The position numbers and the translations under genes were made by a program. Positions 18,799-63,030 of a stretch of DNA of 64,000 nucleotides are shown piece by piece. The number at the start of each line of letters is the position of its first letter. Within the stretch, counting starts at the first letter, position 1. The stretch is taken from assembly GCA_029259915.1 (NCBI GenBank), contig JAJDED010000031.1, positions 1 to 64,000 of the forward strand, written 5' to 3'. Below the pieces are notes generated by a model. It had not been told where the DNA came from. It searched no databases and saw only the letters and a list, made by a program, of their open reading frames with translations. The DNA is from Planctomycetota bacterium. Its GTDB lineage: Bacteria; Planctomycetota; Planctomycetia; Pirellulales; Lacipirellulaceae.

Positions 18799-18896
18799 TA
18801 TTAGCCGTTAGCAGTTAGCAATTAGCGGTTAGCTACTTTAGGCTGGGTTTTAACGAAGAAAACTAATCGCTAACAGCTAATGGCTAATCGCTAAAT
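18799..18896. repeat. Heptad-word intercistronic cassette (TTAGCNN)
   Basis: ttagccg ttagcag ttagcaa ttagcgg ttagct (exact 7-nt period), inverted partner ctaatcgctaacagctaatggctaatcgcta. Contains the stop codon of the upstream ABC ATPase gene. Confidence 0.92.
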
Positions 18897-19810
18897 TTAT
18901 GTCCGGTGCGATCGATAAATACGTCTTCGAGTGTTGGTTTGCCCAGGGTGATTGATTTGATCTCGTCTGGAAATGCTTCGACCAATCGGGAAATCCATTG
19001 GTGACCGTCGGGTTGCTCAAGCCGCACGGCGCCGTCGACAACAATCGCAACGCAAGCAAGTTTTTCGCGAATTCTCAGTGCCAATTCCGTGGGAGAATCT
19101 GCTTGGATCGTGATCGCATCGCCACCGACTGACGCCTGCAAGGCAGCGGGGGTGTCGAGCGCTGCTAATTTCCCTTCGTGCATAATGGCAATGCGGTCGG
19201 CCCGTTCGGCTTCTTCCAACAAATGGGTTGTCAACACGATGGTCACACCCTGTTGTTCGCGGACTTGCCGCAGGTAGTGCCAAAGATCGGCTCGGGCGCC
19301 GGGGTCGAGGCCTGTGCTTGGTTCGTCGAGTAGAAGAATCCGCGGTTCGTGCATCATGCCTTTTGCCAATTCGACGCGTCGGCGCATTCCTCCTGAGAGG
19401 GTTTCAACGCGATCGTTCGCCCGATCGTCAATCGCCAATGCCTTGAGCATCGTTTGTTTACGCTGACGCAGCGTGCTGCCCGACAAACCGTAGAGTCGTC
19501 CCTGATGCTGGAGGTTTTCATCGACCGAAAGTTTTTTGTCGAGGCTAGGTGCTTGAAAAACGACGCCCATTTCGGCGCGAACCGCAGCGATTCGACCGGA
19601 GAGGTTGTGCCCGAGGATTGTGACACTGCCGCTTTGCAAGGGAATCAGTGTCGAAAGCAAACGAAACAACGTCGTCTTCCCACTTCCGTTAGGCCCCAGG
19701 AAGGTGAAGATTTCGCCTTCGTTTACCTGCAAAGACAAATCGTCCACTGCAACGCGCGAACCGTAGTTGTGCGAGACGTGTGTAACTTCGATCGCCGGTT
19801 GAACAGGCAT
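18884..19810 (-). CDS. ABC transporter ATP-binding protein
   Basis: Walker A GPNGSGKTT, signature LSGGMRRRVELAKGMMHEPRILLLDEPSTGLDP. Confidence 0.95.
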   Translation of the reverse strand: MPVQPAIEVTHVSHNYGSRVAVDDLSLQVNEGEIFTFLGPNGSGKTTLFRLLSTLIPLQSGSVTILGHNLSGRIAAVRAEMGVVFQAPSLDKKLSVDENLQHQGRLYGLSGSTLRQRKQTMLKALAIDDRANDRVETLSGGMRRRVELAKGMMHEPRILLLDEPSTGLDPGARADLWHYLRQVREQQGVTIVLTTHLLEEAERADRIAIMHEGKLAALDTPAALQASVGGDAITIQADSPTELALRIREKLACVAIVVDGAVRLEQPDGHQWISRLVEAFPDEIKSITLGKPTLEDVFIDRTGHKFSD

Positions 19811-19854
19811 GATGGGATCAAGAAGGCGGGAGGGCGGGCCTAATGCGAATCCTT

Positions 19855-20173
19855 AAATTATTTAGCCACGGAGAACACCGAGAAAAATACAATTATCAGC
19901 ATTTTCTCTATGATCTCTGTGTTCGACTTTTGCACTTTTCAGCAAGCAGAATAGAACGCAGATGCACACGGATTATGCAGATTTCCGCAGATTTTTTCAG
20001 AGTAAGGGTAACTACGTCCATGAAAACGAACTTCCCTAACTATTTCATAATCAGCGCCAATCACTTTCATCCGTGTATATCCGTGGTCTATTCTTTTTTT
20101 GATCGAAATTGTGTGGTTCCTGAACTCTCAAAAGTGCAAAAGTCGAACTGTGTACTCTGTGGCTAAATTTTTT
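19855..20173. repeat. Complex nested inverted-repeat region (three word families)
   Basis: Outer ttatttagccacggagaacaccgag / gtactctgtggctaaatttttt. Middle perfect 19-bp IR gttcgacttttgcactttt (19921-19939) / aaaagtgcaaaagtcgaac (20130-20148). Inner cacggattatgcagatttccgcagatt / ccgtgtatatccgtggtct words. Confidence 0.9.
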
Positions 20174-20184
20174 GGAGAAACACT

Positions 20185-20628
20185 CTAATGCTCTGCCCCG
20201 TGGGAATCGTCTGGATGGTCGGTGTGCTTTTGTGAATCATGTTCTTCGTCTTGGGCGGGTACTTCGGCCGCATGGATCATTCGCTCGTTCGATGCGTGAC
20301 GCATTCGCAATCCGATATCGGGAATGAGCATCAGGATTAAAAATGCTGACATCACACTCGCCGGCACCGTGAGTACCCACTTCCAGTTGGCTTCCCACTT
20401 CAAGTGCATAAAAAACATGATCACCAGCATGGCTTTCGTGCAGGAGACGAACATCATGAATGCCCGGCTGGCCTCCATCGGCACGCGATCCCGCCAGAAA
20501 TCGAAGTACGTGAGAAACGACAACGACGTGAGCACACACAGGCTCACAAAGACAGCAATATAGATTCCCACACCGCCATGATGTTCATGGTCGTCGTGAG
20601 AATTGGCGTCGTTCGTTGGATTGGACAT
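20185..20628 (-). CDS. Cytochrome c oxidase subunit IV (bacterial COX4-like)
   Basis: MSNPTNDANSHDDHEHHGGVGIYIAVFVSLCVLTSLSFLTYFDFWRDRVPMEASRAFMMFVSCTKAMLVIMFFMHLKWEANWKW. Confidence 0.87.
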   Translation of the reverse strand: MSNPTNDANSHDDHEHHGGVGIYIAVFVSLCVLTSLSFLTYFDFWRDRVPMEASRAFMMFVSCTKAMLVIMFFMHLKWEANWKWVLTVPASVMSAFLILMLIPDIGLRMRHASNERMIHAAEVPAQDEEHDSQKHTDHPDDSHGAEH

Positions 20629-20698
20629 ACTACGTCGCTCGAAAGTGAGAGCGCCTCGATTGGGTTTTAAGCTCAAACTAAAAACAAGTAAGGGAATT

Positions 20699-20826
20699 CA
20701 CCACAGAGAACACGAGAGGGATTTTTAAACGCTTATCTGCACTGATCTTCGCTAATAAATTCAGATTAGCACTGATAAGCGAAGATAAGTGTATTCTTCT
20801 CAGTGTTCTCTGTGTCTCTGTGGTTA
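20699..20826. repeat. Nested inverted repeat (CACAGAG words outside, GATNAGC-like words inside)
   Basis: accacagagaacacgagaggg / ctcagtgttctctgtgtctctgtggtt flank gcttatctgcactgatcttcgctaat / attagcactgataagcgaagataagtg. Confidence 0.88.
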
Positions 20827-20877
20827 GTCTTCATTCCAGTTCGAGTTGTTACAAAGTAAATAAAAGTGCAATTCTAA

Positions 20878-21873
20878 TTAAAACAAATACAAAAGCGGGA
20901 ACAGGAAGATCCATACGAGATCGACAAAGTGCCAATACAGGCCAACGTTTTCGATCACTCCAGCACTGGTCCGATTGAGGGTCATCCCCAGCAAAACGAC
21001 AAAAGCAATCAAACCGATTATCACATGCAAGGCGTGGAAGCCAGTCAGCAGAAAGTAAGTGCTGGCCCACATATTGCCGCCGGGAATCATAATCGGCAAC
21101 TTCAGCCAAGGATGTTTATCGTTGAATCCGGCAAGATGTCCCGTGTCGCCCTCTGCAGAAGTCGAAACCAGCGTGAAGCGAGAATCGGGGGTTGCCGCGT
21201 GGCCTGCATTGGCATGATTTTCATGAATGCTCGCGCGGGGATAGATCTCGTCGGCCAGTTTTAGCAGCAACACCCGTCCGGCGGGCGAATCGGGATTCTC
21301 GCGCATCGCTTTCTCGGCAGGATCGACCAATCGGAGAGCGATGTCGTCGATTACTTCTATCTGCTCGTTCTGGTCTTCCGTGCGATCGGTGGTGCTTTCC
21401 AATTCGGTTTTCAAGGTACTCAGACGCATCCGTACCGCTTGAGCGTAGTAGATGTCGGCTTTTTCATAAATCTGGCTGTGCGGTTGTTGCGGATAAATGC
21501 CGTGCGAGAATTTTGCTTGATATTCGTAGGCTTTGATCCCCAAGAACACACTGCCCAACAGGAAGGTGAGCAACATCCACCCCTTTGCCGAGGAGGCGTT
21601 GTCTTTTTTGGCTGCTTCGAGCGCCAATACAATCGTTACGCTAGAGCAGATAAGTATGAAGGTATTGGTGGCTCCCCAAATCTCGGCCAGATGCACATCA
21701 TGCGTACTAGGCCAGGCAACTGCACCGAACCGCAGGACGATGAATGTGCCGATCAGCGCGGCAAAAAACATAATCTCGGTCGAGAGAAACAGCCACATAA
21801 AGGTCTTGCCGTTCGAAATGGGCAAGGCGGGCTGATAATCGAACATGGGGGAGTGACTGTGGGAATCGCTCAT
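20878..21873 (-). CDS. ctaE: Cytochrome c oxidase subunit III with large internal insertion
   Basis: [27 protein letters not shown]... and [29 protein letters not shown]...[25 protein letters not shown]. Confidence 0.93.
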
Positions 21874-21966
21874 GGCATTTCTTTTTGTGGATGTCTTATT
21901 TGGAGCAAATAACGTTCGTTTGATTTTTTACGGTTCAATCACAAGGTTTCAATTACAAGGTTTCGA

Positions 21967-22905
21967 TCACATCGTGACAATCAATAACATCGCCAACCAG
22001 GCGGGGAGATATAATAGCGATGCGCGCAACAATCGGCGGGCCGAATCGTCGTCCCGCAACAAGGCAAACTGGATGGCACATGCCAACTGGGCAATCCCCA
22101 AGGAAACGGCCCAGGCAAAATAAACGAGTGGGCTGCCGGTCGGTGGCAAAATGGCCAGGATCAAGCTGACCGGAATCAACGCCAACGCCCCAACCACCGC
22201 TTGGGCCCCGGCTCGCACCCCGGTGGGGTCGGCCACGGTGAGCATGCGTTGCCCTGCCGCCGAGTATTCGCGACGGTATAACCAAGCAATCGCCATGAAA
22301 TGGGGAAACTGCCACAGGAACAAAACGCCGACCAGCGAAACGGCTCTCAAGGTTATCGGTGCGCCGGTGGCCGTCCATCCCATCAAGATGGGAATCGCTC
22401 CGGCTACCGCGCCCACCGCGGTGTTGTAGGTCGTGCGTGTTTTCAGCGGCGTGTAAACCACCGCGTAAAGAATCCAACTTGCCAAACCAAGTGCCGCCGT
22501 GAGCCAATTCACGTTGATGGCCAGCCAAGCCAATCCGGCGATCAGTGCAATCGTCGCCAGGCCGATCGCTTCGAAACTCGAAACGCGTCCTGCGGGAAGT
22601 GGGCGCTCAGCCGTGCGTGGCATCCGTCGATCGATGTCTCGCTCGATCCACTGGTTGGCAATACTTGCGCTGGCGGCAATCAGAGCAGTCCCCCACAGGG
22701 CGTGCAGGACAACTGCCGGTTCAATTCCCCTGGGCATTGCCAAACATGCAGCCGCAGCGGCAACAATCAATTCCAAAATCACAATCCGTGGCTTGGTCAG
22801 CTCCAAGTAATCCGCCAAGCGGGTCAGGAAGCGTGACTGACGCCTTTCAAGCGAGACAACGGAAGCATTATTAAGAATGCCATCATTCAGCATGCCATTG
22901 TTCAT
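21967..22905 (-). CDS. ctaB: Protoheme IX farnesyltransferase (heme O synthase)
   Basis: YLELTKPRIVILELIVAAAAACL, ASASIANQWIERDIDRRMPRTAERPLPAGRVSS, YTPLKTRTTYNTAVGAVAGAIPILMGW. Confidence 0.96.
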   Translation of the reverse strand: MNNGMLNDGILNNASVVSLERRQSRFLTRLADYLELTKPRIVILELIVAAAAACLAMPRGIEPAVVLHALWGTALIAASASIANQWIERDIDRRMPRTAERPLPAGRVSSFEAIGLATIALIAGLAWLAINVNWLTAALGLASWILYAVVYTPLKTRTTYNTAVGAVAGAIPILMGWTATGAPITLRAVSLVGVLFLWQFPHFMAIAWLYRREYSAAGQRMLTVADPTGVRAGAQAVVGALALIPVSLILAILPPTGSPLVYFAWAVSLGIAQLACAIQFALLRDDDSARRLLRASLLYLPAWLAMLLIVTM

Positions 22906-23915
22906 AGGGCCACCTCCGCCAATCTCGATGTATCAAACGAAATGCGCGGAACGCTTATCCCGAATTGTCGTGCCAAACGTAACGAAATGGCCAGGGCCGT
23001 TGCTAAAACCAGCGAACCAACTGCGACGTGGCTGGTGATGATCGAAGATTGCAGGAAGTTGGCCTGGGTGTTGACGAATTCCATTTCCCACCAGGTGGTT
23101 GCCCACAGGGGGACACCGTATTTAACCACCCAAGTGCCAGCACCCAAGATCACCTGCACAGCTATTAAACCCACGAGGCACATGCCGCTACGCACTTGCA
23201 TACCGTTTTGAAAACACCGCCAAGCGAGTAGTAACCCGTTCACGACAACCAGCAAAGCCAATAACAGGTGGAAATAAACTGCCGTTTGAAATAGCGAGGG
23301 CGCGAGCGACCCGGTCATGCGGGGACTATGCCGCAAAATTGCACCGATCACCACCTGAGCGAAAGCCAGACAGGTACAAACAATCGCCAACCGCAGTAGA
23401 CGTGTCTGCTTCCGATTTTGAGTATTCTGATTTTGAGTTTGCGATCCGGCATCCCTCCACCACTGCGAAGTAAACACGACCATCGCCACGCAGAGCGAAA
23501 AAAACATGGGGCCTGTGCAACCGTGGACCAAGGCAAGCGTTCGCTCGTCGAGCACCACGCGCAGGCCTCCTAAAACGCCTTGCAAGATGACACCCGCCAA
23601 AATCGCCAAGCTCATCCAACGAACCCAACGTCGCGGTTCGCAGCGCCAAGTGACAACCACGAGAACAATACTGAGAAATCCGACCGCAGCCCCAAGCAAA
23701 CGATGGCCATGCTCGACAAATTTGTCGCCTACCGCACTGAGCCAGGGATACGACAACATGAAATGCCCGTCCGAAGTCAACCAGTCGCGAAAGGCCATTC
23801 CGGCATCGGTCGTGGTCACCAATCCGCCCACCCAAACCAGCGGGAAAGTCGCGCAGGCAAGCACACAGGCCCAGGTGTGGACGAAACGGGTTCGGTTTGT
23901 GTTAGTTGAAGGCAT
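22902..23915 (-). CDS. ctaA: Heme A synthase
   Basis: MPSTNTNRTRFVHTWACVLACATFPLVWVGGLVTTTDAGMAFRDWLTSDGHFMLSYPW...EHGHRLLGAAVGFLSI. Start chosen at 23915 because the upstream extension is repeat sequence. Confidence 0.92.
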   Translation of the reverse strand: MPSTNTNRTRFVHTWACVLACATFPLVWVGGLVTTTDAGMAFRDWLTSDGHFMLSYPWLSAVGDKFVEHGHRLLGAAVGFLSIVLVVVTWRCEPRRWVRWMSLAILAGVILQGVLGGLRVVLDERTLALVHGCTGPMFFSLCVAMVVFTSQWWRDAGSQTQNQNTQNRKQTRLLRLAIVCTCLAFAQVVIGAILRHSPRMTGSLAPSLFQTAVYFHLLLALLVVVNGLLLAWRCFQNGMQVRSGMCLVGLIAVQVILGAGTWVVKYGVPLWATTWWEMEFVNTQANFLQSSIITSHVAVGSLVLATALAISLRLARQFGISVPRISFDTSRLAEVAL

Positions 23916-24001
23916 GGCTAATAATTTTCTAATGACGAAATACCCAATGACGAAAGACGACAGCACCACTTATTCGTCATTAGGTCTTTCGGCATTAGTC
24001 A
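23916..24001. repeat. Heptad-word intercistronic cassette (CATTNGT/ATGACGAA family)
   Basis: attcgtc attaggt ctttcgg cattagt catt (period 7) with inverted arm ctaatgacgaaatacccaatgacgaaag. Contains the ctaD stop codon. Confidence 0.87.
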
Positions 24002-25771: not shown

Positions 25772-25781
25772 GTGAAAATCT

Positions 25782-25899
25782 CTTTTAGCTATTAGCTGTT
25801 AGCTATTAGCTGTTAGCTTTTAGCAGTTAGCTATTAGAAGGACAGTTTTTCAGGACAAAAGCAAATAGCTAATCGCTAAAAGCTAACCGCTAATAGTTA
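25782..25899. repeat. Heptad-word intercistronic cassette (TTAGCNN, 8 words + inverted arm)
   Basis: ttagcta ttagctg ttagcta ttagctg ttagctt ttagcag ttagcta ttag; inverted arm aatagctaatcgctaaaagctaaccgctaatagtta reaches the ctaC stop. Confidence 0.96.
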
Positions 25900-26688: not shown

Positions 26689-26760
26689 ACGGGTATGCAG
26701 GAATCAAATTTCTAGTTTTGTTTTTCAGATTCACGTTGATTTCAAAAGTGAAAAGAAGAT

Positions 26761-26880: not shown

Positions 26881-26911
26881 TTCCTTGTTTTTTTCAGCTT
26901 GATTTGATTAC

Positions 26912-29269: not shown

Positions 29270-29287
29270 TACACGCTACTGATCGAA

Positions 29288-34592: not shown

Positions 34593-34694
34593 TTGTTAGT
34601 TATTAGGTGTTAGTTGCTAGGCGCTAGTTGTTAGGCGCTTGGCTCGAAACTTTCCTCGACAACTAGTCGCTAGTAACTAGCAACTAGCGCCTAT
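34593..34694. repeat. Heptad-word intercistronic cassette (TTAGNNN/CTAGNNN)
   Basis: ttagtta ttaggtg ttagttg ctaggcg ctagttg ttaggcg; inverted arm gacaactagtcgctagtaactagcaactagcgcctat. Fills the gap between two genes. Confidence 0.94.
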
Positions 34695-36095: not shown

Positions 36096-36194
36096 TGGGC
36101 GAGGGGCGAGGAGTGAGGGGCGAGGAGCGAGGGGTTAGGAGCGAAGAGCGAAGGAAATTTCTCGCTCCTCGATCCTCGCCCCTAGCGCCTTTTC
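36096..36194. repeat. Heptad-word intercistronic cassette (GCGAGGN)
   Basis: gcgaggg gcgagga gtgaggg gcgagga gcgaggg gttagga gcgaaga gcgaagg; inverted arm ctcgctcctcgatcctcgcccctagcgcc. Confidence 0.94.
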
Positions 36195-37006: not shown

Positions 37007-37100
37007 GAAAACCGCCAAGGACGCCAAGAGCGCCAAGGGGGTTTTTGATTTCTTACAATTGTGCTTTCGTCATTGGGGTTTTCGTCATTCGTCATTTAAA
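37007..37100. repeat. Composite word repeat: CGCCAAG (9-nt spacing) then TCGTCATT (7-nt spacing)
   Basis: aaccgccaaggacgccaagagcgccaagggg followed by tttcgtcattggggttttcgtcattcgtcattt. Confidence 0.8.
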
Positions 37101-39984: not shown

Positions 39985-40067
39985 AAGGGCTGAGAGCTAA
40001 GAGCAGAGTGCAGAGAGCCAGAGGTAGATTTCTGGCTCTCTGCTCTTAGCTCTCTGCTGTCTCTCAA
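39985..40067. repeat. Heptad-word inverted repeat (GAGAGCN / GCNNAGA)
   Basis: ggctgagagctaagagcagagtgcagagagccagag ... tctggctctctgctcttagctctctgctgtc, directly after the purD stop. Confidence 0.88.
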
Positions 40068-40883: not shown

Positions 40884-40982
40884 CGACGCGAGGAGCGAGG
40901 AGTAAGGAGCGAGGGGCTAGGGGATAAAGGTAGCCGCGACTCTGTCGAGTCGCCGGATATCTCTAGCTCCTAGCTTCTCCGC
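40884..40982. repeat. Heptad-word cassette (GCGAGGN) plus mini-hairpin
   Basis: gcgagga gcgagga gtaagga gcgaggg gctaggg, then gcgactc-tgtc-gagtcgc, then agctcctagcttctcc. Confidence 0.82.
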
Positions 40983-45388: not shown

Positions 45389-45510
45389 AATGTAAGAAGT
45401 TTGATGTGAGAAGGAAGAAGTGAGGATTGAGGAGCGAGGAACTAGGAGTGAGGGATTAGGGGATCAAGCAACTCCTAGCTCCTAAATCCTCGCTCCTCAC
45501 ATCCAACATT
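45389..45510. repeat. Heptad-word inverted repeat (GAGGANN)
   Basis: gtgagga ttgagga gcgagga actagga gtgaggg attaggg; inverted arm aactcctagctcctaaatcctcgctcctcacatcc. Confidence 0.9.
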
Positions 45511-45559: not shown

Positions 45560-46624
45560 ATGCGCAGTTTGCTGTTTGTTGTTAGTTCGTTCGCGGTCAC
45601 CATTCTCGCTTGGGGAATGTATGGTCCCGTGCTGCATTGGGGACAGCACGGCATGTCGACCACCGGGGACCTGGCCCGCTGGCGGCCGTTCGTTTGTGTG
45701 GGGTTGGCCTATTTTGCAATCGGAGTGATTGTTCCCGCGGTGCTTTTGAAACTCCGCGGCGAACAGGGCGAATGGACTGTGCGCGGAATCGTCTTTAGCT
45801 TAGCTGGCGGCGCGTTGGGAGCGTTGGGGGCGCTGGGGATTATCCTCGCCTTCCAATTCGGCGGCAGGCCGGTGTATGTCATGCCATTGGTGTTCGGCGG
45901 TGCGCCGGTCGTCAATTCGTTTCTTACGATCACGCTGACCCGACGCATGAAGGAAATTGGGCCGGTGTTTATTGCCGGTTTGATGATTGTGTTGATCGGG
46001 GCAGTCACTGTGCTGTTGAATCAACCGCATGCCCCAAAACCAGACGCAGACAAGGCGGAAGCGCAAACCGAGCAAGTCGAAGAGGAAAAGCCAGTCGAGT
46101 CGACGCCGGTGCTCGATTTTTTCATGCGGATTGCATCCATACTCATGGCGGTCGTCTGTTGGGGCGCTTATGGCCCGGTGTTGCACAAAGGGCAGGCGGC
46201 GATGAACCAGAGTCGTTTGCGGCCGCTGTTGTGCGTCGGGTTGGCATATTTTGTGATTGCAGTCGTCGCGCCCAATCTGTGGCTGGCGGGAAATCCCGAA
46301 GCGAGCGCCTACAATTTTGGTGGATCGCTGTGGAGTTTGGCAGCCGGTGCCGCGGGCGCGATCGGTGCGTTGGGAATCATTATGGCGTTCAACTTTGGGG
46401 GCAAACCGGTTTACGTCATGCCGCTAGTGTTCGGCGGTGCACCGGTGGTCAACACGCTGTTTACGGCACTCCTCGGTGGTTTATGGAACGAAGTGAGTGC
46501 GCTATTTTTAGCCGGACTCATCTTGGTAATCGCCGGGGCGGCAATGGTGTTGGTCTTCGCGCCGCGCGACACTCAACCACCGCCTGTTGAAACGCCCCGT
46601 GAAACTCCGTCCGACGAATCGTAA
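45560..46624 (+). CDS. Polytopic membrane protein with internal tandem duplication
   Basis: Half 1 LAWGMYGPVLHWGQ...RPFVCVGLAYFAIGVIVP...ALGIILAFQFGGRPVYVMPLVFGGAPVVNS. Half 2 CWGAYGPVLHKGQ...RPLLCVGLAYFVIAVVAP...ALGIIMAFNFGGKPVYVMPLVFGGAPVVNT. Confidence 0.85.
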   Translation: MRSLLFVVSSFAVTILAWGMYGPVLHWGQHGMSTTGDLARWRPFVCVGLAYFAIGVIVPAVLLKLRGEQGEWTVRGIVFSLAGGALGALGALGIILAFQFGGRPVYVMPLVFGGAPVVNSFLTITLTRRMKEIGPVFIAGLMIVLIGAVTVLLNQPHAPKPDADKAEAQTEQVEEEKPVESTPVLDFFMRIASILMAVVCWGAYGPVLHKGQAAMNQSRLRPLLCVGLAYFVIAVVAPNLWLAGNPEASAYNFGGSLWSLAAGAAGAIGALGIIMAFNFGGKPVYVMPLVFGGAPVVNTLFTALLGGLWNEVSALFLAGLILVIAGAAMVLVFAPRDTQPPPVETPRETPSDES

Positions 46625-46667
46625 CGGTTAGCCGTCAGCTATCAGCGGTCAGCAATCAGAAATCAAT
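46624..46667. repeat. Heptad-word run (NNTCAGN), no clear inverted arm
   Basis: aacggttagccgtcagctatcagcggtcagcaatcagaaatc directly after the TAA stop. Confidence 0.75.
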
Positions 46668-47029: not shown

Positions 47030-47100
47030 CTTCGGCACTCAGCGTTCAGCATTCAGAAATCCACACTCCGTTCCTCGGTGACTCCGTGGTAAATCCTGCC
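47030..47100. repeat. Composite word repeat (heptad NNTTCAG + CCGTGAC words)
   Basis: cactcag cgttcag cattcag aaatc followed by actccgttcctcggtgactccgtggtaaa. Confidence 0.75.
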
Positions 47101-48536: not shown

Positions 48537-48640
48537 GTGGTTAGCTATTAGCATTTAGCTGTTAGCCTGAAGAGACTAGATTTAATCGGAAAAAAGCTAA
48601 TCGCTAATCGCTAAGAGCTAACTGCTCCCCTCTGCCTCTT
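48537..48640. repeat. Heptad-word inverted repeat (TTAGCNN)
   Basis: gttagctattagcatttagctgttagcctgaag ... aaaaagctaatcgctaatcgctaagagctaactgctc. Confidence 0.9.
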
Positions 48641-50148: not shown

Positions 50149-53100
50149 TTATTTCACTTCGTCGTTACCGGCGATGGGTAGCGCGTCGTCGTCGAGTTCA
50201 ATTTCTGCCGGTGCGGCATGGCGCCAAGAGCCTGCGCGAATTGCCGAAAAAAGATTGCCCAATAGCTTGGCTCCCCAAACAAGCCCGATCCCGGCAAAGC
50301 AAGCGCCAACGATAAAGCTCGTACTCTGGTAACTTTCAGCAGCAAGCAATAATGTGAGTGCAACTCCCGTCGATACGCCACTGATCAGCAAATGGGTAAA
50401 TGCCGATTCCTTATGGAGGCGTGCGCTATGCTTGGCAATGGCTCCCCGCGCGCTGCTGTTTGCAAGATCACGCATGGCCAACAGGTCGGTAGGCAGGGGC
50501 GGCTTGCTGGAACTCTTTTTCAAATCCTCTAATCCGAGCGGCTCCTGATACTCTTCGCCGCTCTCGACCGGTTCGTCTGCTTGTATAGATGAACTCTCTT
50601 CAACCGATGCGGCGGGTTCACTGTCTGACTTAACAGGTTCCTCGATTTGCGTCCGGATTTCCGTCGAAGCCGATGTTTCGCCACCGCGAACTCGCTGCAT
50701 GAGATTACTCATGTACGCTTCGAGCGCGGCATCGTCCGTATCCTCCGGCAGAGGCTCGGGATTTGTTACATGGGCCGTTGGTTCATGCGTATCGGTGGAT
50801 TCGAGGTTTGATGAATCCTCGTCGAGCATGTGGCTATATTGTTCGATAAACGAAGTCGGCTCGAAATCGTTGGAAGCGGTGTTCTCATCATTCGCAACCG
50901 AATCGTCCTCGGCAACAGGTTGACTTCCCTCTTCCGACCATACCGACATCTCGCGCAAGTGTTCGATCGCTTCCTCTGCAGTATGTTCACTTTCCGACGA
51001 ATGCGAATTTTGGTCGTCGGAGGCAGTTTGCGGAGAATTTTTCTGCTCGGTCTTTTGCAATGCCTGCTCTGCTGAGACGAGGCATTCTCGCGCCGCTGCC
51101 AGATCACGTTGGGACTCGTAATACAACGACTCAAACTTTTCTCGTTGTGTCCGGCTCTCCGCGAATTGCTCGCGTGCTGTTTCAAGTTCCTCGGTAAGCT
51201 GATCAGCTAACGTGCTCTCTTCTTCAGGCTGTGCGTTGAGTGCTTCCAGATCGCGTTGCGAGTTGTTGTACAACGCTTCAAACTCGTCGCGTTGTGTCTG
51301 GCTTTCTTCAAATCGCTTACGTGCGGTTTCAAGTTCCTCGGTAAGCTGGCCAGTCAATGCTGTCTTTTCTTCGGACTGCGCGTTGAGTCTTGCGAGCTCG
51401 CTTAGAGACTCTTCGGCCAACGCTTCAAATTCTTTCTGCCGCGTCAGGCACTCCTCGAACTGATTTCGAGCGGCTTCAAGTTCTTCGGTAAGCTGATTCA
51501 CTAATTCGGATTTTTCATCCGCTTGTGCATTGAACAAAACTTTGTCCTGCTCAAAAACGGCTAAAAGTTCCTGAGCTTCCCGCAAGTCGTGTGCGACTTG
51601 TTCCGAATGCTGACGCTGTTGTACGATTTCCTGCTCGGTCGCCTGCAGTTTTTCTGTCAGCAGATCGCGTTCTTCCCGCAACTGTGCTTCATCTTGGAAC
51701 CCCTTGTCCCATTCGTGTGCTCGGGTAGTCAGCTCGTCTTGCAATGCGGCAATCTGATGGTCGGCCTCGGAGCGTTCCTTCTCCAGACGGGCAACCGCTT
51801 GGGCTGCCTGCTTCAGCTCCGACTGCGTACTGTTTAAGTCGACTTCTAACAGTTCGACGCGCTGCTGCTTTTCTGCGATGCACTGATCATTGTGCTGCCG
51901 GCGCTCAAACTCGGCGGCATGCTGCTCACTAAGATCTTGCTTCTCCGCGCGGAGTTGATCCAACTCGGCTTCGCGTCGACGGAGCAATTCGTCCTTGTCA
52001 TCAAACGTGCCTTGCAGTTGGCGACTTTCTTCCTGAGCCAATTCAAGCTGGGCAGTGAGTTCGTCAACCTGTTGTTGTTGTTCGGCTGCCAATTGCTGTG
52101 ATGCGCTCTGTTCTTCTTCTTTGCAAGAAAGACGCTCCGCCATCTGTTCGCATCGGCTATTGAGTTCTTCAATTTCTTCCTGCAAAGTTTGGCGCGTTGC
52201 GAGATACTGGGCGGCCTCTTGTTCCAATTCCTCGCGTATGTGCAAAGTGGAAGACAACTTGCCACGCATCTGCTCGATCTGTTGATCGCGTTCGGCAAGA
52301 TCCTGCTCCAATTGATGACTGCGCTGACCGTGCTCGGCTTGGCTTGCTGCCAATTCGTCCCGTGACGAACACACTTCGGCAAGCTCTTCCTCAAGACGCT
52401 TGTACGCGTCGACTTGCTCGAATGCGCCTTCTTCAAACGTGTGAAGTGCCTGACACACTCTTTCATGCTCTCCACGCAACTCCTCGAGCTGACGCTTATG
52501 GTCGCCAAGTGCACTTTCCAGTTGTCCAACTTTTTCGGACTGTTGCGTTTCAACCGAAGCGAGGCGATCTCTTTCTTCCCGCAGTTGGTTCAAGTCATGC
52601 TCAAGTTGATCGGCAACCTCCGAACGAGCTTCTAAATGACCAATTTTTTCGGCATGCTGCGACTCGACCGAAGCGAGGTGATCCCGCTCTTCCTGAAGTT
52701 GGGTCAGCTCACACTCCAGTCGATTGACGGCTTCCCAACCCGCTTCCTGTTCTGCTTGGAGATTTTGTGCCGCGAACTGCTGCACCTCTGTGAGTTGCTG
52801 CTGAAGTTGCTCGATCCCCTGATCTCGCTCTGCGAGTTGCTCGGAGAATTCGCTCAGCCTGTGCATCGCTTCGGCGTGAGCGCCGCTGGCTAGTTCAAAA
52901 TCTTGTGAGAGCCTGATGATTTCACTATTGAAACGCTCGCTTTGAGCGGCATGTTCTGCAGCAACCGATTCGGTAACACTAATTTTTTCATAAGCAGAAT
53001 TCAGCTCATCAATCAAGCGATCCAGCTCCGCAGCAGACTCTCCGTCTCGTGTCGAAGCAGCCGTTTGCAGTTCGCTCAATTCGCTGGCAATACGATCTCG

Positions 53101-53787
53101 ATGATCGGTGCCACTGCGCAATTCGTCCTGAAGCGTTTCAATGGTTCGCTGAAGATCCGCTTCAATGGTTTGTTCGCTACGCAACGATTCGAGTAGTTTT
53201 CGGCATCGGGTTCGAGCGGAAAAGTTTGCCGACCACAAATGGCTAACCAGTCGGTCCGCTTCCCAATGCGAGCTAATGTCGCACGGTCCGTTCGTGCTTT
53301 TTCCTGCAGGCTGTTGCTGCGCCTCTTTGCTCAGAGAAAACTCTTCGCGATCTCCTTGCTGGCGATCTCCTTGCTGGTTTGTCTTTCGATCTTGATTGGG
53401 TAATGTGGCATCGCCTGTCAGCAGTTCGAGTTCAATCTCTCCAATCGTTAGACGGTCGCCCGGACGAAGCGGTGCCGTCGTAAAATCTTGACCATTGAGA
53501 AGTGCGCCCGCCGCCCAACGGGTAATGTTGGTTCCCTGTTCGTTATGAACGATCAAACAGTGGAGCGGGCGGACTTGTTCGCCCGGCAGGTGAATTTGAC
53601 AGCGGGAACTGGAACCCAGCGTACAACGCCCCGGCAACAACTCCCATTGCTGCTGTTTGTCTTCAGGGCGAACTAGATGCAATCGTAGCGACGTCGACAA
53701 ATCGCCATGCGCTGTCGAGCTAGATTCCGGTGGCGTTGATTCGGTGGAAATCAGAGAGGTCATCGATCGGGTAAATCCATATTCCAT
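50149..53787 (-). CDS. FHA domain + long coiled-coil protein with C-terminal TM helices (start may be internal, e.g. MTSLISTESTPP)
   Basis: FHA-like WELLPGRCTLGSSSRCQIHLPGEQVRPLHCLIVHNEQGTNITRWAAGALLNGQDFTTAPLRPGDRLTIGEIELELL; about 700 aa of Glu/Gln-rich coiled coil; C-terminal VALTLLLAAESYQSTSFIVGACFAGIGLVWG. Confidence 0.9.
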   Translation of the reverse strand: MEYGFTRSMTSLISTESTPPESSSTAHGDLSTSLRLHLVRPEDKQQQWELLPGRCTLGSSSRCQIHLPGEQVRPLHCLIVHNEQGTNITRWAAGALLNGQDFTTAPLRPGDRLTIGEIELELLTGDATLPNQDRKTNQQGDRQQGDREEFSLSKEAQQQPAGKSTNGPCDISSHWEADRLVSHLWSANFSARTRCRKLLESLRSEQTIEADLQRTIETLQDELRSGTDHRDRIASELSELQTAASTRDGESAAELDRLIDELNSAYEKISVTESVAAEHAAQSERFNSEIIRLSQDFELASGAHAEAMHRLSEFSEQLAERDQGIEQLQQQLTEVQQFAAQNLQAEQEAGWEAVNRLECELTQLQEERDHLASVESQHAEKIGHLEARSEVADQLEHDLNQLREERDRLASVETQQSEKVGQLESALGDHKRQLEELRGEHERVCQALHTFEEGAFEQVDAYKRLEEELAEVCSSRDELAASQAEHGQRSHQLEQDLAERDQQIEQMRGKLSSTLHIREELEQEAAQYLATRQTLQEEIEELNSRCEQMAERLSCKEEEQSASQQLAAEQQQQVDELTAQLELAQEESRQLQGTFDDKDELLRRREAELDQLRAEKQDLSEQHAAEFERRQHNDQCIAEKQQRVELLEVDLNSTQSELKQAAQAVARLEKERSEADHQIAALQDELTTRAHEWDKGFQDEAQLREERDLLTEKLQATEQEIVQQRQHSEQVAHDLREAQELLAVFEQDKVLFNAQADEKSELVNQLTEELEAARNQFEECLTRQKEFEALAEESLSELARLNAQSEEKTALTGQLTEELETARKRFEESQTQRDEFEALYNNSQRDLEALNAQPEEESTLADQLTEELETAREQFAESRTQREKFESLYYESQRDLAAARECLVSAEQALQKTEQKNSPQTASDDQNSHSSESEHTAEEAIEHLREMSVWSEEGSQPVAEDDSVANDENTASNDFEPTSFIEQYSHMLDEDSSNLESTDTHEPTAHVTNPEPLPEDTDDAALEAYMSNLMQRVRGGETSASTEIRTQIEEPVKSDSEPAASVEESSSIQADEPVESGEEYQEPLGLEDLKKSSSKPPLPTDLLAMRDLANSSARGAIAKHSARLHKESAFTHLLISGVSTGVALTLLLAAESYQSTSFIVGACFAGIGLVWGAKLLGNLFSAIRAGSWRHAAPAEIELDDDALPIAGNDEVK

Positions 53788-54869: not shown

Positions 54870-55085
54870 AAACCTCTTGATAAGGACATCCCTGAATCTA
54901 GTGCTTTGAAAATAATGATATAACAAAGCATTCGTTTTTTTTTGCGAAGGATTGCAGACGAGGTTACAATCGAGGTTTGGCCCGTACGATCGTGAATCCA
55001 AGCTCTCAAAACTGGCGCAATGTGTGGCTGCATGCGCGATTGTCACGGAATTGAACTCTTTCCAATTTAAGCTACGGATCCAAGT

Positions 55086-56231: not shown

Positions 56232-56253
56232 GCTCTCTGCAACCCACGGCTAT

Positions 56254-57012: not shown

Positions 57013-57013
57013 G

Positions 57014-57110
57014 ATGAGGATCTTGGAGGGATGAGGGTCGAGGAGGGAGGATCGAGGGAAGAGGAGTTAGGGGCGAGGAAAAATAGCCGCGAGCCTATGG
57101 CTCGCTGGGA
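57014..57110. repeat. Heptad-word array plus 7-bp mini-hairpin
   Basis: gatgagggtcgaggagggaggatcgagggaagaggagttaggggcgagg, then gcgagcc-tat-ggctcgc. Confidence 0.8.
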
Positions 57111-57661
57111 CGGTAAATTTTTAGTGTGCGGTCTTCGGGATCGTAAATATACTCAACGCCCGGGTCAAGCTCGGGAAGTTGCAATTGGTTGTACTTAACG
57201 ACCTTCTCCATAAATTCGTCGTGCGTCTGCGGATACTCGCCATGCTCGGCCCAGTGGAGGATCAACGCATGTTTTATCATGTCGAAAATCACCCTATCCT
57301 CGGCGTAGGCATGTCCCTGAAGTGCCGCACCCTGGTAGCCACTTACTTCGCGCGACTTCTTTCCTTTAAGAGTGTCGTATGCTGTCACCTCGCGCGGCGT
57401 CGAAGTGACTTGTGGAGGTTCTGTGTAACCGTTGTTTGACTCGGATGTTTTATCAGTTTTCTTGGTATGAATTTCGTCCAATCGGCTTCGTGAAAGAGAG
57501 TTAACACATTGCAGTTTAGGACAGGAGGTTTGGCAAACATTTTTACGATGCCAGCAGCAGTTTCTCTTGTTCCAGCACCGAAAACCAAACGCTTGACTTC
57601 CGGAACACAGAAGTGACAAAGTTAGCGTGGCTGCAATCAAGTTGTAACGGCAAGCAAGCAT
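57095..57661 (-). CDS. Secreted hypothetical protein, paralogue of 57700..58242
   Basis: Signal peptide; ends QLPELDPGVEYIYDPEDRTLKIYRPSEP, matching the neighbour's ELEPGDEYIYDPEDHTLKIYRPEGGAQ. Confidence 0.8.
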   Translation of the reverse strand: MLACRYNLIAATLTLSLLCSGSQAFGFRCWNKRNCCWHRKNVCQTSCPKLQCVNSLSRSRLDEIHTKKTDKTSESNNGYTEPPQVTSTPREVTAYDTLKGKKSREVSGYQGAALQGHAYAEDRVIFDMIKHALILHWAEHGEYPQTHDEFMEKVVKYNQLQLPELDPGVEYIYDPEDRTLKIYRPSEP

Positions 57662-57699
57662 CTTGGACCCTTAGCTCTCCATACAAAAATAACAATTCG

Positions 57700-58242
57700 C
57701 TACTGCGCTCCACCTTCGGGGCGGTAAATCTTCAGTGTGTGATCTTCGGGGTCGTAAATGTACTCGTCTCCTGGCTCCAGTTCAGGGAGCGGTAATGCAG
57801 CAGGATAATACTGGGGTAAGTATTCTTTCATAAAATCTTCATGGGATCTGGGATAATGACTTTTCTCAGCTTCGTAAATTCTGAGGTTGTAATCGATCAT
57901 ATCGAAAATTGTTTTATTCTTAACCCAGGGAATCGCTTGCATGTGAGTCCCTAAAGCCCCTCCATCGCGACGCGTGAGTTTGCCCTGTTTCGGGTCCTTC
58001 GCCACTACCTTCCTAGGTATCGAAGTGGTCGGTGGAGGCTCGCCTGGAACGCCTGACATGTCGAGGCGACCATCAGGCAAGTATCCTTCTTTCACTGTCG
58101 GTTCTTCAACTACTTGTTTCGTAACCGTCGGGGCTGGGGCCACAGCAGGCGATTCGATCTCGGGCACATCGCAGCCAGCGCTCAAAAACAAAAGTGCGGC
58201 AATCGGCAAAGCAATCATCGATAGTGTGAGTTGCGTTTTCAT
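57700..58242 (-). CDS. Lipoprotein, paralogue of 57095..57661
   Basis: LPIAALLFLSAGCDVPE lipobox; shared C-terminal domain; ATG overlaps the surE stop. Confidence 0.85.
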   Translation of the reverse strand: MKTQLTLSMIALPIAALLFLSAGCDVPEIESPAVAPAPTVTKQVVEEPTVKEGYLPDGRLDMSGVPGEPPPTTSIPRKVVAKDPKQGKLTRRDGGALGTHMQAIPWVKNKTIFDMIDYNLRIYEAEKSHYPRSHEDFMKEYLPQYYPAALPLPELEPGDEYIYDPEDHTLKIYRPEGGAQ

Positions 58243-59015
58243 CGTGTTTGCTCCAATTGACCGAACTGCCAGGCTTGCATCTCGCGTAGTTTATCGCGGC
58301 GGTTCATGTCGAACTTGAGGGGAGTGAGTGTAATGTGCCCGGCACGCAAAGCGTTCAGGTCGGTTTCTTCGTCGCTGGGCGGGTCGGGTGCCATGCCTGT
58401 CGCCCAGTAGTAAGGCCGACCGCGCGGGTCGAGTCGTTGCTCAAAATCTTCGCCCCACGGTGCGGTCGCCGCAGGCACGATTCGCACTTCGGTCGGGCCA
58501 TCCAGCGCGGCCGTGGGGATGTTCAGGTTGTATAGTTGCGACTCAGGATCTTTCTGAGCCAATATCTGTTCGATGATTGCCACGGCATGTTGGGCCGCCA
58601 AGTCGAATCGCGCATCGTCGTGAAACTCCAACGACACCGCGATACTGGTAATACCAAAAAAAGCTCCTTCAATCGCCGCCGCCACCGTGCCGGAATACAG
58701 CACGTTGATGCCGGCGTTCAAACCGCCGTTGATGCCACTGACAACCAACGTCGGTCGTTTGGGACACAGCTCGGCAATCGCCAATTTCACACAGTCGGCG
58801 GGGCTTCCTTCCACCGCCCAGCCGCGGTGACCACGCTCCTCGTCAAACACTTCGCGAGCCATCAGCGGAGTGAGATACGTAATCGCGTGGCCGACGCCGC
58901 TCTGCTCGGTAAGCGGGGCAGCAACCGTGACGTCTCCCAGTTGCCGCAACTGGCGTTCCAGAGCCGCAAGGCCCGGTGCATAGATGCCATCGTCGTTGGT
59001 GAGCAGGATTTGCAA
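58239..59015 (-). CDS. surE: 5'/3'-nucleotidase SurE
   Basis: MQILLTNDDGIYAPGLAALERQL...SGVGHAITY...GWAVEGSPADCVKLAI...VVSGINGGLNAGINVLYSGTVAAAIEGAFFG. Confidence 0.97.
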   Translation of the reverse strand: MQILLTNDDGIYAPGLAALERQLRQLGDVTVAAPLTEQSGVGHAITYLTPLMAREVFDEERGHRGWAVEGSPADCVKLAIAELCPKRPTLVVSGINGGLNAGINVLYSGTVAAAIEGAFFGITSIAVSLEFHDDARFDLAAQHAVAIIEQILAQKDPESQLYNLNIPTAALDGPTEVRIVPAATAPWGEDFEQRLDPRGRPYYWATGMAPDPPSDEETDLNALRAGHITLTPLKFDMNRRDKLREMQAWQFGQLEQTR

Positions 59016-59159
59016 GTCGTAAATCTCCTTGTATCAGGGGTTTCCGTCACGTCGCCGCCATCATCATTATAATCGGCCCCGATGCAAATCGGCAACGCAC
59101 CGTGGCAAAATCGCAACGCGCCAACAGCCAAAGCACGCTATAAAATGCCGCTAATCCAC

Positions 59160-59270
59160 CCCTTTCCAATTTCCCATTTCTCATTTCGATTCCCCCGCCT
59201 TCCCCTTTCGCATTTCGACATTCGCATTTCCTCTCCCCCCTGCCCCTCGCTCCTCGCCCCTCGTATAATC
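59160..59270. repeat. Degenerate 7-nt word tract (TTTCNNN / CCCCTCG) upstream of guaA
   Basis: cccatttctcatttcgattcccccgccttcccctttcgcatttcgacattcgcatttcctc then cccctcgctcctcgcccctcg. Confidence 0.55.
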
Positions 59271-59305
59271 CCTGGTTTCCGCTATTCCCTGCCAGGAGGG
59301 TGTGA

Positions 59306-60889
59306 ATGACCATGACGGCATCTGAAATACCTGCTGTCGCCCGCCGTACTGCGGCCGAACGTGTGTTGGTACTCGACTTCGGTTCGCAATACGCGCAGTT
59401 GATCGCGCGCCGCGTGCGCGAGCAAAACGTCTATTGCGAAATCGTGCGGCACAACATCTCGGCCGATCGCCTGCGCGAACTTGCGCCGTTAGGAATTATT
59501 CTCTCCGGCGGACCGGCGAGCGTTTACGAAGAAGGCGCTCCGCAGTGCGATGCAGAATTGTTTCAACTCGGCATTCCCGTTCTGGGTATCTGCTACGGCA
59601 TGCAACTGGCTTGCCAGGCGTTTGGCGGACAAGTTGATAACACGCCTTCGCGGGAGTACGGGCGTGCCGAATGTAACATCACGGGCACCGACGACCTGTT
59701 CGCCGACGTCAACAGCGCGACCCAGGTGTGGATGAGCCACGGCGATCAAGTCGCGGGGTTTGCCGACGAGTTTATCCCACTTGCAAGTACGGGAACTTGC
59801 CCCTTCGCCGCGATTCGGCATCGCGATTTGCCGATCTACGGTTTGCAATTTCATCCCGAGGTAACCCACACGCCCGAAGGCGGAAAGGTGTTGGGTAATT
59901 TTCTTAAGATAATCTGCGGAGCGCACGGCACGTGGAAGCTGGGCGACTTTGCCGCGGAAACCATCGCACAAATCCGCGAGCAAGTGGGAGACAATCGCGT
60001 CATCTGCGGCCTGTCGGGCGGTGTCGATTCGTCGGTGGTTGCGGCACTGTTGGCCGAGGCAATCGGCCCGCAACTTTCGTGTATTTTGGTCGACAACGGC
60101 TTGTTGCGGCAGGACGAAGAGGCGTCGGTCATTCGCGAATTTAGCGATCACTTCAAAACCGACCTGCACGTAGTGAAAGCCGAGGAAAAATTCCTCGATG
60201 CACTTGCCGGCATCACCGACCCGCAGGAAAAGCGCCGCCGGATTGGGCACACGTTTATCGAATGCTTTGCCGACGAGGCACAAAAAATCGAGGGCGCGAA
60301 ATATCTGGCGCAAGGAACATTGTATCCCGACGTCATCGAAAGTGGCGCCGCCCCCGACGGACCGGCCGACACGATCAAACTGCACCACAACGTCGGCGGT
60401 CTGCCCGAAGAGTTGGGTTTCGAGTTGATCGAGCCACTGCGCGATTTATTCAAAGACGAAGTGCGACGACTCGGTTTGCAGTTGGGCTTGCCAGAAGAAA
60501 TTGTGTGGCGCCATCCGTTCCCGGGGCCAGGATTGGCGGTTCGTTGTTTAGGCGAAGTGACCGAGTCGCGGCTGGAAACGTTGCGCGCTGCCGACGCGAT
60601 TGTAGTGGGTGAAATCAAAGCCGCGGGACTGTACCGCGAAACCTCGCAGGCCTTCGCCGTGCTGCTTCCCGTGCAAAGCGTCGGCGTGATGGGCGACAGC
60701 CGCACGTACGACGACGCCCTGGCAGTACGCTGCGTAAACACCGACGACTTCATGACCGCCGACTGGAGCCATTTGCCGTATGAGTTGCTCGCCAAGATTT
60801 CCACGCGGATCATCAACGAAGTGAAAGGGGTAAATCGCGTGGTGTACGACATCAGTTCAAAACCGCCTGCAACAATCGAATGGGAGTAG
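59306..60889 (+). CDS. guaA: GMP synthase (glutamine-hydrolysing)
   Basis: [66 protein letters not shown]-terminal PPATIEWE. Confidence 0.98.
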
Positions 60890-60895
60890 CGGGGA

Positions 60896-60930
60896 ATAAT
60901 CTCGCAGAGGCGCAGAGACGCGGAGGAAAG
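60896..60930. repeat. CGCAGAG-word repeat, left arm
   Basis: aatctcgcagaggcgcagagacgcggaggaaagag; inverted partner at 61190-61227. Confidence 0.88.
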
Positions 60931-60975
60931 AGTGGACGAACTTGCGATCACCAGATGCCTTTTGAGAACCCAATC

Positions 60976-61176
60976 ATGCTTAAAGCTATGATACTCGGTT
61001 TCATTCTTGGAGGTTTTCTAGGATTTGTTATTCCCTATGCTTGGTGGTTCTTTTATGAAATGGCCAATCCTGCTCAGGGCGTTGGAACAGTGTTCGCAAT
61101 GATAATGTTTTTCTCAATACCGGTTGGAATGGGATTGGGCACAATCATCGGAGCGATAATTGGCGCTAATCAGTAA
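60976..61176 (+). CDS. Small two-TM membrane protein between inverted repeats (start 60955 or 60976)
   Basis: MLKAMILGFILGGFLGFVIPYAWWFFYEMANPAQGVGTVFAMIMFFSIPVGMGLGTIIGAIIGANQ. Confidence 0.65.
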   Translation: MLKAMILGFILGGFLGFVIPYAWWFFYEMANPAQGVGTVFAMIMFFSIPVGMGLGTIIGAIIGANQ

Positions 61177-61189
61177 TGACACATTGAAT

Positions 61190-61227
61190 TTTGATTTCTC
61201 CGCGACTCCGCGTCTCTGCGAGAAACA
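61190..61227. repeat. CGCAGAG-word repeat, right arm (inverted)
   Basis: ttttgatttctccgcgactccgcgtctctgcgagaaac. Confidence 0.88.
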
Positions 61228-61245
61228 TAAAAACGAAAGTAAATA

Positions 61246-62925
61246 ATGGCACAGAAGTACATATATCAAATGGGCGGCTTGACCAAGAAGATCGGTCAGC
61301 GCGAAGTGCTTAAAGACATTTGGTTGTCGTTTTATCCTGGCGCGAAGATTGGCGTGCTTGGGCGCAATGGTTCCGGCAAAAGTACGTTGCTGAAAATCAT
61401 GGCCGGCAAGGACAAAGAGTTTGAAGGCGAAGCCCGGCTGACCGACGGTTTTACTGTTGGTTTGTTGGAACAAGAGCCACAATTGAATCCCGACAAAGAC
61501 GTACAGGGGAATGTCGAAGAAGCCATCGCACCAACGCGAGCGCTGTTGAAAGAGTTTGAGGAAATCGGCGACAAGTATGCCGACGTGGCTGACAATCCCG
61601 ACGCGATGGAAAAGCTGATGAATCGGCAAGCCGCGCTGCAGGATAAAATTGACGCCTCTGGGGCTTGGGAAATCGATCGCCAAGTGGAAATCGCAATGAG
61701 CGCGATGAATCTTCCGGCAGGTGATGCCGACGTCACCAAGCTTTCCGGGGGCGAACGGCGGCGGGTGGCACTTTGCAAAATTTTGCTCGAACGTCCCGAC
61801 CTGTTGTTGTTGGACGAACCAACCAACCATCTCGATGCCGAAAGTGTCGCCTGGCTTGAACGCCATCTGGCCGAGTACGCCGGCACGATCGTGGCGGTGA
61901 CGCATGATCGTTATTTTTTGGACAACGTCGCCGGCTGGATTTTGGAACTCGATCGGGGCGAGGGCATTCCTTGGGAGGGAAATTATTCGTCGTGGCTGGA
62001 GCAAAAGCGCAAACGGCTTGAAGTCGAAGAGAAAAAACAAACCGCCCGACAGCGTTCGTTGCAGCGCGAGTTGGAATGGGTTCGCATGGCTCCCAAGGCG
62101 CGTCAGGCCAAGAACAAAGCACGCGTAAAAGCGTATGAACAAATGGCGTCGCAACAATTTGAAGATCGCTCCGATGAGCTGGAAATTCAAATCCCGCCGG
62201 GGCCCCGACTGGGCGACATGGTTGTTGAATCTGACAACCTCACCAAAAGTTACGGCGACAACCTAATCTTCGAAAACGTAAACTTCCGACTCCCGCCCGG
62301 GGGAATCGTCGGCATTATCGGGCCCAACGGCGCCGGCAAAACTACCCTATTGCGAATGCTGATGGGACAGGAAGAACCAGATAGCGGAACATTGAAGATT
62401 GGTCCCACCGTCGAGTTGGGCTACGTCGATCAATCGCGGGACGCGTTGGTCGCGGAGAACACAGTACATGACGAAATCTCCGGCGGGCATGAAACCCTGG
62501 AAATGGGTGGCCGCAAAATGAACTCGCGGGCCTATGTTTCCCGTTTCAATTTCACAGGTCCCGACCAACAGAAAAAAGTGGGCGTACTCTCCGGCGGCGA
62601 ACGGAACCGCGTGCATTTGGCCAAGCTATTGCGTCGCGGCTCGAACGTCCTGCTGTTGGACGAACCGACCAACGACTTGGACGTCGACACGCTGCGTGCG
62701 CTGGAAGAAGCGGTCGCCAACTTCGCCGGCTGCGCCGTGGTGGTGAGCCACGACCGCTGGTTCCTCGATCGGCTGGCAACGCATATACTGGCGTTCGAGG
62801 GCGACGGGGTGGCCACCTGGTGCGACGGAAATTTTGAAACCTACGAACGCGAACGCCGCCAACGCCTCGGCGAAGACGCCGACCAACCCAAACGATTTCG
62901 ATACAAGAAGTTACAGAAGAGTTGA
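61246..62925 (+). CDS. ettA: Energy-dependent translational throttle protein EttA (ABC-F)
   Basis: [59 protein letters not shown]...[40 protein letters not shown]...[20 protein letters not shown]...[15 protein letters not shown]. Confidence 0.97.
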
Positions 62926-62932
62926 TTGAGAA

Positions 62933-63030
62933 GAGGTGAGAGGTCGGAGGTCAGAGGTCAGGGATTCTTCGGAATACGACACTCTGGCCTCTGGCCTCTG
63001 GCCTCTGACCTCTGACCTCTGACCTCAAAC
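62933..63030. repeat. Heptad-word inverted repeat (AGGTCNG / CCTCTGN)
   Basis: gaggtgagaggtcggaggtcagaggtcagg ... cctctgg cctctgg cctctgg cctctga cctctga cctctga cctc, exact 7-nt period. Confidence 0.96.

Follow-up and report, generated by a model that had tools for sequence, protein, structure and literature searches.

Heptad arrays in the window and in the genome

The DNA studied here (the window) comprises positions 1 to 64,000 of contig JAJDED010000031.1, designated C25, from the Planctomycetota assembly GCA_029259915.1 (G000; 4.2 Mb in 64 contigs, 93% complete). Gene content and sequence character suggest a Pirellulales-like planctomycete. The 18.8-37 kb part of the window contains a respiratory operon with genes for COX3, COX1, c-type cytochromes and cytochrome b, and between these genes, as at intergenic sites elsewhere in the window, lie arrays of degenerate 7-nt words, most of them followed across a spacer by a second array in inverted orientation (Table 1). 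The term intergenic rests throughout on a purpose-made codon-usage gene caller and not on curated annotation. An earlier note on this sequence had called these heptad cassettes an undescribed repeat system with interchangeable words; we give a probability of roughly one half to the reading that they are a multi-word variant of bacterial heptamer repeats, in which the slots are fixed and the arms are replaced by copying between loci.

Each locus cited in the earlier note was assessed by comparing the best 21-position window at lag 7 with 500 dinucleotide shuffles of the same stretch. Heptad periodicity was upheld at 12 of the 14 loci (18799, 23916, 25782, 34593, 36096, 39985, 40884, 45389, 46624, 47030, 48537 and 62933; p<=0.006), but it was marginal at 37060 (13/21, p=0.10) and did not exceed the shuffles at 15268 (10/21, p=0.17). 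Two loci that had not been cited, at 59159 and 164, also passed. At a threshold of at least 21/28 matches the window holds 11 loci at lag 7 versus none at lags 5, 6 and 8-13, and at 23/28, the one threshold at which shuffles were run, three lag-7 loci were observed versus none in the shuffles. The signal extends to genome scale: in 1.23 Mb of G000, 138 mostly intergenic lag-7 arrays were found at 18/28, versus 1, 1 and 5 at lags 4, 5 and 6, 19 at lag 8, 35 at lag 9, and 14, 4, 4 and 4 at lags 10, 11, 12 and 13; lags 14 and 21 follow lag 7 as its multiples. The smaller excess at lags 8 and 9 is probably due to a repeat of the GCCAAGAGCGCCAA type.

Table 1. Heptad arrays of the window, with the two arms of a cassette on successive lines
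Positions	Strand	Feature	Remarks
18801..18833	+	TTAGCNN array, left arm, 5 units	p=0.002, shuffle test
18862..18894	-	GCTAANN array, right arm, 5 units, spacer 28 nt	hairpin z=-4.8
23935..23998	.	weak heptad pair, AATGACGAAAGACGA ... TTCGTCATTAGG	14/21, p=0.002
25782..25838	+	TTAGCNN array, 8 units, between COX1 start and upstream gene	
25857..25894	-	inverted arm of COX1-junction cassette	hairpin z=-5.1
34593..34634	+	TTAGNNN/CTAGNNN array, fills junction downstream of cytochrome b gene	
34661..34693	-	CTAGNNN inverted arm	hairpin z=-4.9
36097..36153	+	GCGAGGN/GTGAGGN array, fills junction upstream of cytochrome b gene	
36161..36190	-	CTCGCTC inverted arm	hairpin z=-5.9
39986..40018	+	AGAGCNN array, left arm	
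40034..40065	-	inverted arm of 39985 locus	hairpin z=-3.8
40888..40926	+	GCGAGGN array; REP-like hairpin GCCGCGACTC..GAGTCGCCGG in spacer	
40961..40980	-	CTCTAGCTCCTAGCTTCTCC, short inverted arm	hairpin z=-3.2
45409..45461	+	AGGAGTG/GAGGANN array	16/21, shuffle test
45472..45497	-	CTCCTAG inverted arm	
46622..46665	+	TCAGCNN single array, no inverted arm	no hairpin
47032..47061	+	TCAGCNN single array, no inverted arm	no hairpin
48541..48566	+	TTAGCNN array, divergent junction	
48596..48626	-	inverted arm of 48537 cassette	hairpin z=-4.2
59163..59187	-	TTTCCCA array, absent from the earlier list	
59230..59263	-	CCTCGCC array, second word in the same intergenic region and sense as TTTCCCA	
62932..62961	+	AGGTCNG array	
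62982..63026	-	CTCTG[GA]C x6, inverted arm	hairpin z=-8.3

Placement, pairing and polarity

The arrays of G000 lie between genes and often span the whole gap from stop to start. Among gaps of at least 60 nt, arrays occur most often between convergent genes (18/79), followed by co-directional (60/398) and divergent genes (13/144). Adjacent arrays match each other's reverse complement at 5.35 of 7 positions in the best rotation, versus 3.62 for random pairs and 3.7 in direct orientation, and the folding of eight dyads of the window beats that of shuffled sequences (z -3.2 to -8.3). The arrays at 46624 and 47030 are single, lack an inverted arm and fold no better than shuffles. Between loci the words are unrelated, while the 7-nt step, the inverted pair and the intercistronic slot recur, as the earlier note had it.

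The dyads have a fixed polarity, the left arm being the more GT-rich one in 13/13 dyads of G000 and in 26/29 at loci of other phyla; across three GT-rich seed words, the GT-rich strand points inward at 60 loci and outward at 10. Hairpins in general do not share this polarity, since the non-heptad inverted repeats of G000 are biased the other way (13:35). Single arms just before start codons have an AC-rich sense strand in 17/19 cases, and those after stop codons show no strand preference (14:13).

Word structure and word turnover at conserved slots

At least eight word families occur in the G000 genome. The commonest is TTAGCNN, TTAGC being present in 33-40 arms; over 158 units its positions 1-5 are constant at 96-100% and positions 6-7 are free. 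A general unit of five fixed and two free positions was considered and rejected: the pattern is significant in G000 (17/28 adjacent, p=0.004), a result driven by TTAGC/GCTAA, and reaches only 42% versus 33% at loci from IMG/VR. Stop codons in all frames were likewise rejected as a purpose of the words, which are enriched 3.4-fold for TAG/CTA and 2.7-fold for TAA/TTA but only 1.2-fold for TGA/TCA, largely a signal of the TTAGC family. In a generic search for YTNANNN, the reversed pattern is uninformative as a control, since it matches other heptad words itself.

Comparison with congeners and other family members indicates that slots are kept while their words change. In the junction upstream of COX1, a TTAGCNN dyad is found in G000, CACTGAC units in the relative G006 and CCCTGAC/CCCTAAC in G010; G005 and G009 have no heptad array there. 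The two junctions that flank the cytochrome b gene carry heptad arrays in 12/25 and 11/25 family members, with about ten words. In the slot at 34593, G006 has a TTAGCNN dyad versus a TAGGCGC dyad in G004, so that both arms differ between genomes of 77% DNA identity, and at the junction of the weak pair at 23935..23998 G006 also holds a heptad pair, with the word TGGTCAT. Across the orthologous junctions compared, a relative is more likely to have an array where G000 has one (odds ratio 5.9, p=7e-4, from pairs that are not independent). Word likeness is 4.52 between junctions of one genome, 4.47 between orthologous junctions of different genomes and 4.18 between non-orthologous ones; each genome has its own word vocabulary. 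Such exchange of words while slot and layout are kept appears new.

Within a genome, one word is common to many unlinked loci. CTGACC[AC] is found on at least seven contigs of G025 and CTCACCA on at least four of G034, and a blastn comparison with arrays masked detected no shared flanks among the same-word loci of G025, G034, G028 and G039.

A constant core with exchangeable arms

The strongest support for interchangeable words, a central claim of the earlier note that the orthologous junctions also bear out, comes from a dispersed element of G034, a relative from the same order. Its core, ACGCGYTNRCGCGT, has 95 matches on one strand and 102 on the other, palindromic cores being counted twice, and the reversed pattern gave no match in this genome. 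The roughly 100-200 copies of the core carry arms from a pool of about five words (read from the outside to the core GTGGTGA, GATTTNN, GTTNTTN, AGGGTNN and GGGTCNA), along with a TTGGATA-type sequence. The arm classes were defined by us from the sequences, and at least one arm is unclassified in 30/64 loci; in the 34 loci with both arms classified, left and right arms are chosen independently, with the same word in 8 loci versus 8.0 expected. Arms of one class share a common order of variant units and a fixed phase relative to the core, and therefore look copied as modules. The cores also form a larger composite element: at L394, L398 and L415 (contigs C15, C33 and C92) they often stand as opposed pairs 113-128 bp apart, enclosing a repeat of the TTGGATATTGGACATT type.

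Origin of the cassettes

The cassettes are dispersed intergenic heptamer tandem repeats of a kind known in other bacteria. In this planctomycete family the typical one occupies a fixed intercistronic slot and consists of two convergent arms of 7-nt units, whose GT-rich strand points inward, on either side of a short core. We propose that arms are copied between cassettes by ordinary DNA-templated processes, either ectopic gene conversion or template switching, which may spread a word within a genome and replace the word at a slot while leaving synteny intact. Slippage would act secondarily in lengthening or shortening some arrays, and the cassettes may persist because they are tolerated between genes and transcribed as strong intercistronic hairpins.

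Several points weigh against this proposal. We infer copying between loci from sequence patterns, and among close strains no case of a donor and its recipient was observed, the nearest pair of genomes available being ~77% identical. The copying model does not predict that the step should be exactly 7, nor that TTAGCNN should be so strictly conserved at five of its seven positions. The likeness of words at orthologous junctions is barely above that at non-orthologous ones, and the pairs counted across orthologous junctions are not independent.

A possible but unlikely account is that replication slips locally with a preference for 7-nt steps, and that point mutation and template switching at quasi-palindromes then yield the inverted arm. 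Slippage does act on arrays other than those of TTAGCNN, given that over all G000 arrays adjacent units are more alike than permuted units (z=8.3) and that variant units spread block-wise along the arrays of G025; G025 and G029 also hold long, near-perfect arrays. According to Mrazek 2007, as cited in PMC4679880, heptanucleotides outnumber every other class of 5-11 nt repeat in most of the genomes surveyed, and their dominance in many genomes is also recounted in PMC4692102. However, the free positions of adjacent TTAGCNN units are identical in 13.2% of cases versus 14.5% for shuffled units, and the variable dinucleotides of its arms are no more complementary within a locus (0.66) than between loci (0.80), with no excess in any register near 0. 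TTAGCNN is thus explained neither by unit-by-unit slippage nor by hairpin-templated copying. The latter, put forward in the earlier note, is not supported for this main family, given the lack of excess complementarity at the variable positions; at 39985, exceptionally, the unit order is common to both arms, apart from one unit missing from the inverted arm. Slippage is further opposed by loci of other phyla, in which adjacent units match less than units at least two apart, and by one word at dozens of unlinked loci together with the ordered homologous arms of G034, which need copying between loci.

Selection of the arrays by a protein or an RNA reading 7-nt steps, also suggested in the earlier note, is improbable. 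A parallel exists on plasmid pSM19035, where RHH omega repressors recognise contiguous 7-bp heptads. Translation regulators have been proposed to read the TAACTGA repeats of Beggiatoaceae, and here the conservation of five positions in TTAGCNN and the location of arrays directly before starts and after stops would be consistent with such a reader. The many word families per genome, the replacement of the word at one slot and the unrelated words that serve as arms of one element make a single reader unlikely, and beyond the TTAGC family the division into five fixed and two free positions is weak. It is similarly doubtful that a dedicated trans-acting process, distinct from RAYT, RVT_1-type reverse transcriptases and Ku-dependent joining, writes GT-rich arms of 7-nt step on both sides of intergenic cores, selecting each arm from a set of words particular to the genome, with the heptamers of Xanthomonas, Nostoc, Beggiatoaceae and planctomycetes all as its products.

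A telomere-like process would add GT-rich 7-nt repeats to the two 3' ends of a break and then unite these ends head to head at a palindromic core. The inward GT-rich strands, the independent arms around the palindromic core of G034 and the TTTAGGG-like units of some arms would agree with such a process, which is nonetheless very unlikely: neither RVT_1 nor Ku was found in G000 or G034 (genomes 93-95% complete), single arms by stop codons lack a strand preference, and the AC-rich arms before start codons are more simply accounted for by translation. Mobilization as REP/BIME elements by RAYT (Y1) transposases is largely refuted. RAYT genes are common in the family (G000 has 10), and genomes with more of them tend to have higher heptad counts (rho 0.47, p=0.002, 40 genomes); a few cassettes, such as 40884, have a REP-like spacer hairpin. 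Yet arrays near RAYT genes (6 in 69.5 kb) are at about the genome average, the G034 core flanks none of the three RAYT genes inspected, heptad arrays occur without any Y1 match in the complete genome G029, and G036 combines 10 Y1 matches with a lack of heptad hits; the loci are not reducible to a single REP/RAYT family. Comparison of the genomes shows RAYT, an RVT_1-type reverse transcriptase and Ku each to be unnecessary, so that the arrays would be moved by DNA-templated copying of a general kind or by some other machinery. G-quadruplex formation, proposed for GGGNATC and GGGGAYT heptamers and attractive for the positional grammar shared with the Xanthomonas and Nostoc repeats (PMC4692102), is refuted as a general cause by TTAGCNN, the commonest word, which has no G-tracts and shows the same dyads, polarity and slots.

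Relation to known heptamer repeats

The word "undescribed" in the earlier note does not hold, as heptamer repeats are known from Xanthomonas, Nostoc and Beggiatoa. The Xanthomonas GGGNATC and Nostoc GGGGA(C/T)T repeats are intergenic heptamer arrays (Rehm 2015, PMC4692102). GGGNATC forms 70-75 convergent inverted pairs per genome, is scarce between divergent open reading frames (ORFs) and keeps its gene context in related species; immediately downstream of stop codons it lies on the coding strand and immediately upstream of start codons on the non-coding one, which is also the polarity rule of the planctomycete arrays (PMC4692102). The planctomycete cassettes resemble this type in their lag-7-specific tandem arrays, mostly intergenic and scarce between divergent genes, and in convergent inverted pairs, fixed polarity and kept gene context. 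In Xanthomonas and Nostoc, however, one G-rich word dominates the genome and is kept between species, whereas here many words per genome, most of them without G-tracts, are replaced at a conserved slot; the G-quadruplex potential of the GGGNATC type is absent from TTAGCNN. The many words and their change at orthologous junctions make the cassettes a variant of the GGGNATC family and not a member of it. The TAACTGA direct repeats of marine Beggiatoaceae (MacGregor 2015, PMC4679880) are likewise intergenic heptamer arrays, lie mostly just upstream of starts and occur in distant phyla, but consist of one word that is almost never inverted, with related heptamers rarely or never repeated.

REP/BIME elements with RAYT share with the cassettes their short, dispersed intergenic hairpins and, in G034, a constant palindromic core; the cassettes differ in arms of 7-nt units, exchangeable words and the absence of a link to RAYT genes. 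The STRR of heterocystous cyanobacteria, reportedly described by Mazel in 1990, are said to be degenerate intergenic 7-nt tandem repeats with several words, in all of which they are alike to the cassettes; STRR-type CCCCART arrays have no match in the G000 genome. Long simple repeats and bacterial satellites (Mrazek 2007 as cited in PMC4679880; PMC6749651) share the over-representation of the heptamer class, for which slippage has been proposed, though these surveys appear to deal with single arrays and not with paired, slot-conserved cassettes.

The format extends beyond the family. Four successive TTAGCNN units occur in at least 115 stretches outside the phylum, from Bacteroidetes, Cyanobacteria, Acidobacteria, Clostridiales, Proteobacteria, Chloroflexi, Spirochaetes and an ANME-1 archaeon; because the search pattern fixed five positions and freed two, the unit format of these loci is not independent evidence. 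Among those listed, 48 other lag-7 arrays lie away from the seed, versus 4-10 at lags 6, 8 and 9. Heptad arrays are also borne by IMG/VR contigs, which may include host DNA, and CGATT, a control word for viral contigs, proved to be a heptad word itself. The same TTAGCNN pattern is present in only 10/392 sampled genomes of the phylum; the heptad format is thus widespread and each word patchy. In non-perfect arrays (L190-L269, L450-L529, L570-L649), adjacent units match at 0.20-0.28 versus 0.31-0.51 for units at least two apart, which suggests a 14-nt superperiod.

Other repeats and features

A second class of intergenic repeats in the window has steps of 8-9 nt (CACGGAGGCACGGAGA, CGCCAAGAGCGCCAAGGAC) and lies at positions 15236, 20797, 26772, 26850, 37013, 44413, 60903, 61198, 63197, 63490 and 63710; GCCAAGAGCGCCAA itself was found in 14 intergenic regions within the 1.23 Mb of G000. 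The heptad array at 164-195, GAGGACAGAAGTCAGAGGTCGGAGGTGAG, lies within an apparent RHS/YD-repeat coding region on the minus strand. A minus-strand ORF of 1212 aa (50149-53787), with internal repeats of 114 and 147 nt, probably encodes a coiled-coil repeat protein. Matches to Rfam RF01687 (Acido-Lenti-1 "sRNA") were found at window positions 16426-16471 and also, on contig C58 (L350 2447-2491), 76 bp from a Y1 transposase (RAYT) gene; this "RNA" family may in reality be a RAYT-associated REP element.

Significance

The positional grammar of G-rich heptamers holds here for words without G-tracts, and G-quadruplexes are thus not its general reason. A polymerase-footprint idea for the 7-nt step is attributed to Mrazek 2007 in accounts of that work (PMC4679880, PMC4692102), and with regard to the dominance of heptamers among long bacterial repeats the planctomycete family provides a comparative system in which to test it, through conserved slots whose words change between species and through G034 core copies with independently mixed arms. 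For the organism itself, word turnover at operon junctions would affect mRNA structure between the cistrons of the respiratory operon.

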